A stretch of 42,492 bases of DNA from NCBI GenBank assembly GCA_039111535.1, contig JBCCIM010000030.1:1-42492 (forward strand). The letters run 5' to 3'. This DNA is from Bacteroidota bacterium. Lineage in GTDB: Bacteria > Bacteroidota > Rhodothermia > Rhodothermales > JAHQVL01. The notes below the pieces were generated by a model. That model searched no databases. It was not told the origin of the DNA and was given only the letters and a program-made list of their open reading frames with translations. A program made the position numbers and the translations under genes. This document shows positions 32,850-37,984 of this stretch, piece after piece. Numbering within the stretch: the stretch's first letter is position 1; each line of letters starts with the position of its first letter.

Positions 32850-33155
32850 TTACTTGCGCGGCGTGTTTTTCGCTTTCCGATTCTCCTCGTGTTCTTCGAG
32901 GATTTTGGCGTCCTCGATGTTGGGATCTAACCCTTGTTTAAACGCCTTCTCTGCTTCCGTAACAATGTCTACGGAAGCCTTGATTGTCGCATCAACAGCC
33001 TTGGTAGCAGCGCGGGTCAGAAACCCGCCTACAAATACAGCTTTCCCCAGGAAGTTCAGGTCCTCAAAGCGGATAATGTGGTTATCATCAGCCTTTCGAT
33101 TGCCAGATCTTTTACCCCCCGACTGTTTAGAGCCGGCGTCTTGAGGGTCAGCCAT
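32850..33155 (-). CDS. Small helical protein, paralogue of upstream neighbour
   Basis: 101 residues, no signal peptide. The N-terminus is basic and Gly/Ser/Lys-rich; the core RFEDLNFLGKAVFVGGFLT and AATKAVDATIKASVDIVTEAEKAF is a long amphipathic helix resembling phasin-like or polyhydroxybutyrate-granule proteins in texture, without being a clear match. The tail is mixed-charge (ILEEHEENRKAKNTPRK). The core aligns by eye with the protein encoded 16 bases upstream (F-[ED]-x-L-x-x-x-x-K-A-[VI]-F), so the two look like a tandem duplication. Both would be on one transcript. I cannot assign a function. Confidence 0.7.
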   Translation of the reverse strand: MADPQDAGSKQSGGKRSGNRKADDNHIIRFEDLNFLGKAVFVGGFLTRAATKAVDATIKASVDIVTEAEKAFKQGLDPNIEDAKILEEHEENRKAKNTPRK

Positions 33156-33171
33156 ATCGTTTGTCCGTTAC

Positions 33172-33492
33172 TTATTCTTCCTTCTTTGGCGTGGATTTGC
33201 GGGTGCGGGTAGAGGTAGAGCGTTTACGCGTCGTTGTACTTTTTTTGGTTGTTGTACGCTTCTTGGGGGCAGGTTTGGGCGCTTCTTCTGCCGCTTCTTC
33301 TGCCGCTTCCTCGTCCTTGTACATGTTGTTTACCTGTTCTGCAAACACATTGCCTACCGCTTCGATCCCGTGCGCAAGCATGGCGAAGGTAGATTCAACC
33401 AGGAAGATAGCTTTTTCCTCAATTTTGAGAGAATCAAACTCATCTCGCGCCTGACGGTACTGCTCTTTATTATTTTTCGCTTTTTCTGCCAT
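33172..33492 (-). CDS. Small protein with histone-H1-like basic tail
   Basis: 106 residues. Residues 1-62 form a helical, mostly acidic head (DEFDSLKIEEKAIFLVEST, GIEAVGNVFAEQVNNM). An Ala/Glu run (AAEEAAEEAPKPAP) links to a tail of about 35 residues built from Lys, Arg, Thr and Ser (KKRTTTKKSTTTRKRSTS), like histone H1-type and Hc1-like DNA-condensing tails. The tail suggests nucleic-acid or polyanion binding; the head resembles its downstream paralogue and phasin-like proteins. Phasins with such lysine-rich tails do bind DNA in some bacteria, but no polyhydroxyalkanoate gene is in the window, so this is only an inference. Confidence 0.75.
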   Translation of the reverse strand: MAEKAKNNKEQYRQARDEFDSLKIEEKAIFLVESTFAMLAHGIEAVGNVFAEQVNNMYKDEEAAEEAAEEAPKPAPKKRTTTKKSTTTRKRSTSTRTRKSTPKKEE

Positions 33493-34673: not shown

Positions 34674-35153
34674 TTATTTAGCACGGATAGGAATCCAAAC
34701 TTCTTCGCGGGCTTGGGGGTCAATAGGGTTATACCCCTCCGGCAAAATCTCGAACTGGGGGCGATCGTCCATTGCATACGCAGAATTGGGCAACCAGTCC
34801 TGAAAAATATACCCAAAGACGCGGGGAGCGCCACTGGCCGGCCCAACGTAATCGAATACTGCGTAAAGTCCAGTCTCAAGCGTAAATGTTTGCATGCCTT
34901 CAGGCACCTCACCTCCCTCGTCTACCTCTACTACAGCCCACTTTCTAAACACAGTAGTCGGAGTAAATGCTGCATCTCCATTTTTGTCATACACTTGCAT
35001 GGAAATGTAGTCGTCCGTGATGCGCCCCTGTACTTCGTGCCGCCTTGGCATAAAGGATTGCCAGAGTGCCTGCGTCTTGTTTTCCATTAACGACATCTCC
35101 AACGAAATCCCAACCAGGTGTCTTGTTGGTGTGTTTTCTATTCTTACGTCCAT
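34674..35153 (-). CDS. GyrI-like / AraC effector-binding domain protein
   Basis: 159 residues, a stand-alone domain with no DNA-binding part. The pattern PTRHLVGISLEMSL at the start, IFQDWLPNSAYAMDDRPQFEIL in the second half and a final VWIPIR are classic for the GyrI-like fold, which binds small amphipathic ligands. ETGLYAVFDYVGP matches the conserved G-x-Y-A-x-F-x-x-x-G segment. Possible roles are ligand sensing or detoxification; none is supported by neighbours. The upstream channel gene has a terminator 2-38 bases after its stop, so this gene probably has its own promoter. Confidence 0.88.
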   Translation of the reverse strand: MDVRIENTPTRHLVGISLEMSLMENKTQALWQSFMPRRHEVQGRITDDYISMQVYDKNGDAAFTPTTVFRKWAVVEVDEGGEVPEGMQTFTLETGLYAVFDYVGPASGAPRVFGYIFQDWLPNSAYAMDDRPQFEILPEGYNPIDPQAREEVWIPIRAK

Positions 35154-35275: not shown

Positions 35276-36124
35276 TCATTCTTCCTGCGGAGGTGGCCGG
35301 CTTGAGTTTGTCAGATGATCCATCTGCGCCTGTTGGAGCGCGATCACCTCTTTTCGAAAATCGGCCAACTCCCCTCTGAGATCTTTTACCAGTTCTTCCA
35401 GTGCGTCGTTGTTATCAGCCGTCATTTCATCAACAAAAACGGCATTTGCAAGCGAGAAACCGAGAATACCGCCAATCACAACGGAAAAGGCAAAATAGCC
35501 GCGTAAAAGCAGCAGGTCCCAATCAGCCAACCCCTCCTCTTCAAGTTGGTCAGGAATTTCAAACCAGCCTTCGATAGTGAAGACCTTGAACATAGAATAA
35601 TAGGCCACATAGGGATCGCCAAAGTATTTCTCCGAATAATCCTTGAACAGCATGTTTGCACCCATTGCAAAAATGATGTTGAGCAGAATCAAAACAAGAA
35701 ACACACCCACAGATGCTTTTAAAGAGCGTAAAACGCCTTTCCAAATCTGTTCTGCATGCGGGATAAAACGCAGCATGCGGAAAAAGCGCAGAAAGCGCCC
35801 CATCCTAAGGAGCAGCACAATCTCAGCCCCTTCAAATTCTCCTTCAACAAAGGGATCCAGCAGCAGTGGTAATCCGAGCAGGACAATGGTAAAATCAAAC
35901 CTGTTCCATGCGCTCTTCCAGTAGCCACGAAACCCCAGCAGCCTGGTTTTGACAAATACCTCGAACACATAGTACAGCATGCAATACACATCAAACTGAT
36001 GTAGCAAGCGTCCATATTCCGCGTGAATGCCGGGAAAACCGTCCAGCACAAGCGCGGTAGTGTTCAGAAGAATAATGGTTATGACGAGGTACTCATTAAC
36101 CAGGAACTGCAGTGTTTTTTTCAT
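35276..36124 (-). CDS. Single-domain voltage-gated cation channel, T-x-E-G-W filter
   Basis: 282 residues from the ATG directly after a TTG codon. Six membrane helices as in bacterial NaChBac-type channels: S1 about 8-30, S2 43-60, S3 72-90 with NRFDF, S4 with five Arg at every third position (R107, 110, 113, 116, 119), S5 138-158 and S6 206-232 ending ANAVFVDEM. The pore loop carries TIEGW (183-187) where BacNav channels usually have TLESW; T-x-E-G-W occurs in eukaryotic Cav pore loops. A C-terminal coiled coil (238-268) fits tetramer assembly. Ion selectivity is therefore uncertain. The amidase gene lies 65 bases upstream on the same strand. Confidence 0.9.
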   Translation of the reverse strand: MKKTLQFLVNEYLVITIILLNTTALVLDGFPGIHAEYGRLLHQFDVYCMLYYVFEVFVKTRLLGFRGYWKSAWNRFDFTIVLLGLPLLLDPFVEGEFEGAEIVLLLRMGRFLRFFRMLRFIPHAEQIWKGVLRSLKASVGVFLVLILLNIIFAMGANMLFKDYSEKYFGDPYVAYYSMFKVFTIEGWFEIPDQLEEEGLADWDLLLLRGYFAFSVVIGGILGFSLANAVFVDEMTADNNDALEELVKDLRGELADFRKEVIALQQAQMDHLTNSSRPPPQEE

Positions 36125-36189
36125 CAATCACACAAAACTCAGTGTTTCAACAAGGGATGGTGGCAGATACGTTAAATGTGCCGGCGGGT

Positions 36190-37896
36190 TTAACGGATTG
36201 GCGGTTTTCGCAGGTGAAAATCTGTTTTTTGTTGATACGCATGGGCTACCGCCAGCGTCATGTCGTCTTTGAACAAGCCGCCTGTAAAGGTAATGCTGCC
36301 GGGCACACGCCGCAGGGAAGCCGGCTTGTCTGGCAGGATGTCAAAACGATTTGGGACCACCACCGCAGGGTGACCGGTCAAGTTTGTGATTTGTAATGCC
36401 CCACCCCGAAAAGACGGTGCAACAAATACATCCACTTCTTCCATGACCGCTTCCATTTCCTGCATAAGCAGGGTGCGGTACCTGTTTGCCTGAATGTACT
36501 CTACCGCCGGTGTAAACCGCGCAGCACGAAAGGCATTGGGCCATGCACGACGCTCTTGCCGCACCATTGTGTCAACAGCGCCATTGCGCGTGATTTCGTC
36601 GAATGCTGCTGCGGCTTCAACGCCAAGCGTCAAGAGCAAAGGCTGTACATCTCTGGCCGGTAACTTGATAGGCACTAGCTCAATGCCGAGATCGCGCAGT
36701 ACCTTCAGTGTGGCAGAATCGGCTTTTTGTCCATTATAGGTTCCTTCAAAGGCTTCTGCGACATATCCTACGCGCATACTGGCCAGTTCAGGAGCCGGCC
36801 ATGCAAAAGGTGCATCTATCGAACTGCAGTCTGCGGCATCAACGCCGTGGATAGCGTCGAAAACCAGTGCGCAATCTTCTGCAGAGCGACACATCGGTCC
36901 AAGCTTGTCCATAGACCAGGAAAGTGCCATCGCCCCGTCGCGGCTTACACGGCCGTATGTCGGGCGCAATCCACTTACTCCGTTTCGGGTAGACGGCGAC
37001 ACGATAGAGCCGAGCGTTTCCGAGCCAATGGCAAACCCTACAAGACCGGCCGCAACGGCTGATCCGGGCCCGGCAGAGGATCCGCTTGATCCTTGCTCGA
37101 TATTCCATGGATTTTTGGTAACGCCATCATACCAGACATCTCCCCAGGCAAGCGCGCCGAGGGTAAGCTTGGCAACGAGAATGGCGCCGGCTTCATCCAG
37201 CTGCTTTACAACAGCGGCATCTGCATCAATCACCTGGTCTTTAAACGGCATGGCGCCCCAGGTGGTTGGATAGTCTTTTACCGCGAGCAGGTCTTTCGCC
37301 CCCCATGGAATGCCGTGTAGCGGACCACGCCACACGCCTGCAGCAAGTTCTTCATCTCTGGCAGCTGCCTGGGCTAGTGCACGGTCTTCCGTTAGCGTCA
37401 CTACGGCTTCCAGTAGCGGGTTGTATTTTTTCAGCCGCTTGAGGTACAGCCGGGTTAGCGCAGTGGCTGTAATTACACGCGATTTTATCAATCCCGACAA
37501 CTGCGCAACCGGCAGGTATGCTAAATCTTCTTCGCTTGCAGGCAGCTGTACATCAGCCGGCTCCCATGTCGTGCGTGTTATTGCGCCAGCATCAGGCAAA
37601 TGGCTGGCCACGCGCAGGTTTAGCTGAACGGCAGGCATCACGCTATTCGGCAATCGCTCCTCGCGCATTGTATTGATTTGGGCGAGGCTTTCGTTCAAAT
37701 CTTCCAACATGAGCGTACGCTGCTCGGTGGTAAAGCTGAGGCCGGCAATCTGTTCAGCTTCAGCAATCATTTCTACGGTGATCGCAGCTTGCGCTTCCTG
37801 CTGCTTATGCAGGGCAAACAAGGCGCCAGGAAAAAGCGTGGATGACAATCCGGAAGCTGTAAAGAACTGCAGGAAACCGCGTCTATTGAAAGACAT
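36190..37896 (-). CDS. Tat-exported amidase (amidase signature family)
   Basis: 568 residues from the second ATG; eight more codons are possible. NRRGFLQFF (residues 4-12) followed by a hydrophobic stretch is a twin-arginine signal. Catalytic triad of the amidase-signature fold: Lys201 in WGAKDL, cis-Ser273 in SGSSAGPGSAVAAG and nucleophile Ser297 in GSETLGS, spaced as in FAAH and GatA. HGIPWGAKD and NPWNIEQGSSGS match a GatA-like clade. It hydrolyses an amide of unknown type in the periplasm; it is not the tRNA amidotransferase, because of the signal peptide and the long N-terminal helical extension (about 40-120). The channel gene follows after 65 bases. Confidence 0.92.
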   Translation of the reverse strand: MSFNRRGFLQFFTASGLSSTLFPGALFALHKQQEAQAAITVEMIAEAEQIAGLSFTTEQRTLMLEDLNESLAQINTMREERLPNSVMPAVQLNLRVASHLPDAGAITRTTWEPADVQLPASEEDLAYLPVAQLSGLIKSRVITATALTRLYLKRLKKYNPLLEAVVTLTEDRALAQAAARDEELAAGVWRGPLHGIPWGAKDLLAVKDYPTTWGAMPFKDQVIDADAAVVKQLDEAGAILVAKLTLGALAWGDVWYDGVTKNPWNIEQGSSGSSAGPGSAVAAGLVGFAIGSETLGSIVSPSTRNGVSGLRPTYGRVSRDGAMALSWSMDKLGPMCRSAEDCALVFDAIHGVDAADCSSIDAPFAWPAPELASMRVGYVAEAFEGTYNGQKADSATLKVLRDLGIELVPIKLPARDVQPLLLTLGVEAAAAFDEITRNGAVDTMVRQERRAWPNAFRAARFTPAVEYIQANRYRTLLMQEMEAVMEEVDVFVAPSFRGGALQITNLTGHPAVVVPNRFDILPDKPASLRRVPGSITFTGGLFKDDMTLAVAHAYQQKTDFHLRKPPIR

Positions 37897-37984
37897 ATAG
37901 CCAAACGAATAAATGAGCATTTACTGGCTTGAGTATAGCAAAATCGACATAAAATTACCGATTTCATCCGGTATAAATACAACG

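Follow-up and report, generated by a model that had tools for sequence, protein, structure and literature searches.

Channel gene and its surroundings

The window, that is, the whole stretch of 42,492 nucleotides analysed here, carries on its minus strand a gene for a one-domain (6TM) voltage-gated cation channel. The ORF runs from an ATG at 36124 to a stop at 35276-35278 and encodes 282 aa, and an alternative TTG start (36125-36127) lies directly 5' of the ATG. Residues are numbered below as in P0001, the window channel counted with this TTG as residue 1; numbers counted from the ATG are one lower. The features of the locus are the following.

34674..35153, minus strand: downstream neighbour, a GyrI-like / Cass2-like small-molecule-binding protein (PF06445, by Pfam)
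35276..36124, minus strand: one-domain (6TM) voltage-gated cation channel gene (ORF translation, PF00520, AlphaFold2 model)
35303..35422, minus strand: C-terminal helix with coiled-coil heptads (heptad reading, AlphaFold2 model)
35423..35455, minus strand: S6 signature S225-LANAVFVDEM (alignments)
35558..35578, minus strand: selectivity filter T1-I2-E3-G4-W5-F6-E7 (translation; TIEGW is 35564-35578)
35585..35587, minus strand: P1 pore-helix residue Lys181, at -3 relative to the filter Thr (aligns with NavAb Gln172)
35768..35806, minus strand: S4 voltage sensor R108-x2-R111-x2-R114-x2-R117-x2-R120 (translation, alignments)
36190..37920, minus strand: upstream neighbour, an amidase (PF01425, by Pfam)

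The protein matched PF00520 (Ion_trans) with 99.4 bits (cut-off 25), and this score above the curated cut-off, together with an S4 arginine at every third residue, places it in the voltage-gated type of PF00520. The five arginines of S4 (RMGRFLRFFRMLR) follow one another at i+3, and R108 and R111 are invariant in both alignments (A1 and A2). The filter codons read T-I-E-G-W on the minus strand, Gly4 being residue 186 from the ATG and 187 from the TTG, and the C-terminal helix bears a heptad stripe (L-V-L-L-F-V-L) in a single register. The preliminary description had noted the TIEGW motif, the five regularly spaced arginines, a C-terminal coiled coil and a glycine numbered 186; we recovered all of these, the last when counting from ATG 36124.

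An AlphaFold2 monomer model computed on a 56-row alignment (mean pLDDT 92.2, pTM 0.68) presents S1-S5 helices, two pore helices (172-182 and 185-197) flanking the filter, and one continuous helix (202-275) that leads from S6 into the C-terminal coiled coil. Among solved folds, this model came closest to chains of NavAb, CavAb and CatSper, which were level at Z 15-16 (chain D of the CatSper entry 7eeb at Z 16.2, with an rmsd of 4.2 and 232 aligned; NavAb and CavAb at Z 15.9). Matches in fold do not discriminate between NavAb, CavAb and CatSper, and we draw no conclusion of kinship with CatSper from ties in fold. The 6TM fold, the EEEE ring and the C-terminal helix are common to NavAb, NaChBac and the window channel. 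Because its relatives share the filter and span ten named phyla, this predicted six-helix voltage-gated channel is a real observation and not a product of chance.

The amidase (PF01425) was not found beside the channels of relatives. In both the window and the nearest relative (G002, locus L088), rsgA and transketolase lie on either side of the channel, and in the relative the amidase and GyrI genes were undetected. Saprospiraceae-type loci (L028-L081) have the order EngB-like GTPase, acyltransferase (PF01553), channel and RNase_T exonuclease, the acyltransferase gene being upstream in 22 loci and the exonuclease downstream in 21; the GTPase owes its name to inspection of the sequence by eye, the acyltransferase and the exonuclease theirs to Pfam. 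We claim no functional link of the acyltransferase or the exonuclease to the channel, since neither adjoins the window gene. A pair of short neighbouring ORFs elsewhere in the window (32850-33492, minus strand) resembles phasin- or histone-like proteins, as judged only by eye; the second is rich in Ala over one stretch and has a basic tail of Lys, Arg, Thr and Ser.

Separation from other one-domain channels

Our searches gave 193 distinct matches. The 93 above 180 bits, including the window's own row, were taken as the family, by a threshold chosen after the gap was visible; three of these rows are shorter than 220 aa (L041, L194 and L195). A further 76 matches scored 60-180 bits, and removal of two filterless pieces (L206 and the second piece of L194) left 74 other one-domain channels. 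The 24 lower matches stand outside these counts, and six of them, of K type, served as the outgroup of the quick tree described below. A profile built on 26 family members scored full-length family rows at 290 bits or above and the other one-domain channels at 126 bits or below. NCBIfam yielded no match for P0001 and no family model, the commonest match among the 26 members hitting two of them.

When named genomes were scanned with P0001, 101 relatives came up and 80 were kept: 51 from Bacteroidota, five from Planctomycetota, four each from Rhodothermota and Myxococcota, two from Calditrichota, one each from Thermodesulfobacteriota, Omnitrophota, Verrucomicrobiota, Pseudomonadota and Acidobacteriota, and nine without phylum. 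As many relatives are metagenome bins, the single-record phyla may reflect binning errors. The nearest named relative is a Rhodothermaceae bin (62% identity), which makes it probable that the host belongs to Rhodothermales. The gene is patchy, with matches in seven of the 60 genomes of the close-relative search (own genome counted). Among the matches listed, strong family matches (>190 bits) occurred in 8/296, 5/193, 1/249, 5/149 and 1/148 genomes of the phylum searches, each of which counts its centre genome, chosen for carrying the gene. The plasmid search returned one record, with a 34% partial match.

Whereas the preliminary description had presented the protein as a bacterial sodium channel (BacNav) with an odd filter, our trees and S6 comparisons set it in a separate family. 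The trees comprised 31 family rows and 45 BacNav or ancestor-like rows, picked by a similarity cut. In a careful tree, from which the filter columns were dropped and which had no K-type outgroup, the branch between the family and the others was fully supported (100/100), with NavAb, NaChBac and the TLEDWTD sequences on its other side. In a quick tree with the K-type outgroup, the groups stayed apart, with support of 49 for the family and 98 for the others.

The family S6 signature is S-L-A-N-A-[VI]-F-V-D. In almost every other one-domain channel, S6 instead reads N-L-F-I-[GA], a pattern present in 66 of the 74 others and in none of the 93 family rows. In 91/93 family rows, Ser replaces the Asn that Nav and Cav channels conserve, and in 92/93 an Asn follows one turn later; outside the family, S6 could be read by its pattern in 68 of the 74 channels, 67 of them with the Asn, and most of the six unmatched sequences were cut short. 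All 93 family rows have Ala at the place of NaChBac Gly229, a state not specific to the family, as 27 of the 68 other channels also have it. The window channel displays the Ser, the displaced Asn and the Ala.

Canonical BacNavs have TLESW, a neutral position 7 and S6 N-L-[FV]-[IV]-[GA], and branch across the 100/100 split; the window channel has neither T-x-E-S-W nor N-L-F-I-[GA] and does not group with NavAb and NaChBac. Ancestor-like BacNavs with TLEDWTD (NavPp type) share its acidic position 7 and, three residues before the filter Thr, have an Arg where it has Lys181, at the site of NavAb Gln172, whose role is discussed along with that of Met181 in excerpts of PMC12919392. They differ in Asp4, in S6 (N-L-F-I) and in their side of the branch. 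Among solved structures, NaChBac and its chimera were the best single-domain PDB matches to the window sequence (71-73 bits) and NavMs (6yz2/6sx5) the best to the family profile (128 bits). The repeats of Cav2.2 stay below NavMs against this profile (59-91 bits); its repeat I reads T-M-E-G-W in the aligned pore, with Gly after Glu as in the window channel, which is single-domain and bacterial.

CavMr of Meiothermus ruber is also a one-domain voltage-gated channel and has T1, E3, G4, W5 and an acidic position 7 in common with the window channel (excerpts of PMC7041947). Comparing TLEGWVD with TIEGWFE, the filters differ by Leu/Ile at position 2, Val/Phe at 6 and Asp/Glu at 7. CavMr is further reported with Gly at the Gly229 place (excerpts of PMC7041947), where the window channel has Ala, and with a disulphide-bearing L6 loop (excerpts of PMC10120453), whereas the window pore domain contains no Cys.

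On these sequence comparisons, the window channel is better described as belonging to a distinct one-domain family that is neither of the canonical BacNav nor of the TLEDWTD ancestor-like kind, the published ancestor-like group (AnclNav) being compared through stand-ins, with CavMr and NavPp represented by stand-ins or description only. That the family is instead a divergent part of AnclNav, a claim of kinship compatible with any reading of selectivity, seems to us distinctly improbable: AnclNav as published is described as reaching across many phyla and into archaea (excerpts of PMC7041947), and our comparison used TLEDWTD and TLEGW-type stand-ins in place of CavMr or the published set, but the 100/100 branch parts the family from every stand-in and from both reference BacNavs, and CavMr's Gly at the Gly229 place stands against Ala in the whole family.

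Selectivity filter and ion preference

The filter is strongly conserved in the 93 family rows: position 1 is Thr in 92 (Ser in one), positions 3 and 5 are Glu and Trp throughout, and position 4 is Gly in 92 (Asn in one). Position 6 is Asn in 51 rows, Tyr in 35, Phe in five, and His and Ile in one each, but never Val, and position 7 is Glu in 87, Asp in four, and Gly and Ser in one each. Among the 74 other one-domain channels, position 4 is Asp in 37, Gly in 20, Ser in 16 and Asn in one, and an acidic position 7 accompanies these residues in 34/37, 16/20, 0/16 and 1/1 cases, respectively. The preliminary description had asked whether such a filter is common in plain sodium BacNavs; it is not, the acid at position 7 being found in none of the 16 Ser4 channels as against 91 of the 93 family rows. 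On the tree, Gly4 changes state at least 10 times among the 45 other rows and 12 times in all. Labile elsewhere and nearly fixed in the family, this residue argues for function.

The only family row lacking Gly4 is a Shewanella sequence (L101/L049, filter SIENWND), whose placement is unsure because of its long branch. We also considered covariation between the P1-helix residue at -3 (Lys/Gln) and position 6 (Tyr/Phe or Asn). Although strong by counts, it reflects ancestry on the tree and adds nothing beyond it, since the -3 trait changes twice and supported branches give one independent pair.

Separately, adjacent pairs of one-domain channel genes were observed in 4/249 genomes of the phylum search around a Shewanella genome (L140, L154 and L157, at G444:C391, G356:C135 and G332:C22; also G293:C62). 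Three of the pairs were read, and in each of them a TTEGWP[S/T] partner, neutral at position 7, stands beside a T[M/S]EGWPD partner. The two products may together form a heteromeric channel of two subunits, which could serve as a model of a step towards the paired repeats of four-domain Cavs.

The link between the filter glycine and calcium selectivity proposed in the preliminary description is real for CavMr, whose PCa/PNa of about 218 falls to 11.9 in G4S and 7.7 in G4D, and NavPp D4G, with Thr at position 6, gains divalent selectivity (excerpts of PMC7041947). Excerpts of a 2023 review (PMC10120453) equate a glycine here with calcium selectivity in one-domain channels. The glycine alone is nevertheless insufficient: NavAb S178G (TLEGWSM) has PCa/PNa <0.01 and prefers Li+ (PLi/PNa about 2.2), and NavAb M181A mutants are described as non-selective, with about ten-fold calcium selectivity (excerpts of PMC12919392). 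Because S178G stays calcium-excluding, Gly4 would, by analogy, need its scaffold.

In the window channel, Gly at position 4, as in CavMr, speaks for calcium, and Phe at position 6, where CavMr requires Val for its high selectivity, speaks against it. CavMr remains calcium-selective in D7M, but V6T loses much of the selectivity and is permeable to K+ and Cs+ (excerpts of PMC7041947). The Phe, Asn, Tyr, His or Ile found at position 6 in the family is a state outside the published experiments consulted. Because the CavMr combination of Gly4 and acid-7 is present but Val6 never is, we regard a preference for calcium (or divalents), predicted by analogy, as the best-supported reading of the window channel, and as probable without being secure.

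Two further observations weigh against this calcium preference. The Na+/Ca2+ exchanger family PF01699 was not found in the channel's own genome (97.6% complete), so that no calcium export partner of exchanger type was seen, and none of the gene neighbourhoods examined, in the window and in relatives, points to calcium. In favour of the calcium reading, the same genome has five PF00520 matches over the cut-off; as the four besides the window channel carry G-[YF]-G filters of K type, the window channel is, judging by these motifs, the only Nav/Cav-type channel found there. One further match, below the cut-off, lacks the G-[YF]-G motif.

A voltage-gated channel selective for monovalent ions (Na+ or Li+), with Gly4 merely widening the filter entrance, would parallel NavAb S178G with its TLEGW filter and exclusion of calcium, and a Na+ entry path would presumably be usable by a salt-water host. 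We think this unlikely, as S178G has Met7, a residue tied by the authors to monovalent sorting (excerpts of PMC12919392), whereas position 7 is Glu or Asp in nearly all family rows, and CavMr and NavPp-D4G, both with an acid there, are calcium-selective (excerpts of PMC7041947). A weakly selective or calcium-blocked channel passing both Na+ and Ca2+, like NavPp or CavMr V6T, would fit the bulky or polar position 6 (F/Y/N), where V6T lowered the selectivity of CavMr; this also appears unlikely, NavPp-D4G being divalent-selective despite its Thr6 (excerpts of PMC7041947).

Under the preferred reading of calcium or divalent preference, we infer a homotetramer opened by depolarisation, its four subunits bundled by the C-terminal coiled coil and its S4 arginines, to judge from their conservation, sensing voltage. 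The four Glu3 side chains would form a high-field ring, the small Gly4 would widen the filter mouth above it, and Glu7 would contribute an outer acidic ring; Ca2+ or divalents would then be favoured over Na+, as in CavMr.

Implications for prokaryotic calcium channels

CavMr is the only prokaryotic Cav identified according to excerpts of a 2026 paper (PMC12919392), and the open-access literature that we searched contained no prokaryotic Cav besides CavMr and no TVEGW or TIEGW channel. We tentatively propose a third deep lineage of one-domain channels, spread over about ten phyla, in which T-x-E-G-W-x-[E/D] would be held fixed by calcium conduction throughout the lineage, an idea that is quite possible but that we would stop short of calling probable. 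If it is true, there would be a real family of prokaryotic Cavs where only CavMr is now recognised, with S6 lining the pore differently from the Nav/Cav channels studied so far. Scattered as it is, and with a CavMr-like pore nearly always kept, the family is a good starting point in the search for bacterial calcium channels, and its nearly invariant Gly4 offers dozens of natural tests of Gly plus an outer acid as a calcium filter. Its members would provide small one-domain channels for studies of the Cav pore and for calcium tools, and would reveal whether calcium entry through voltage-gated channels is an old and common trait of bacteria.
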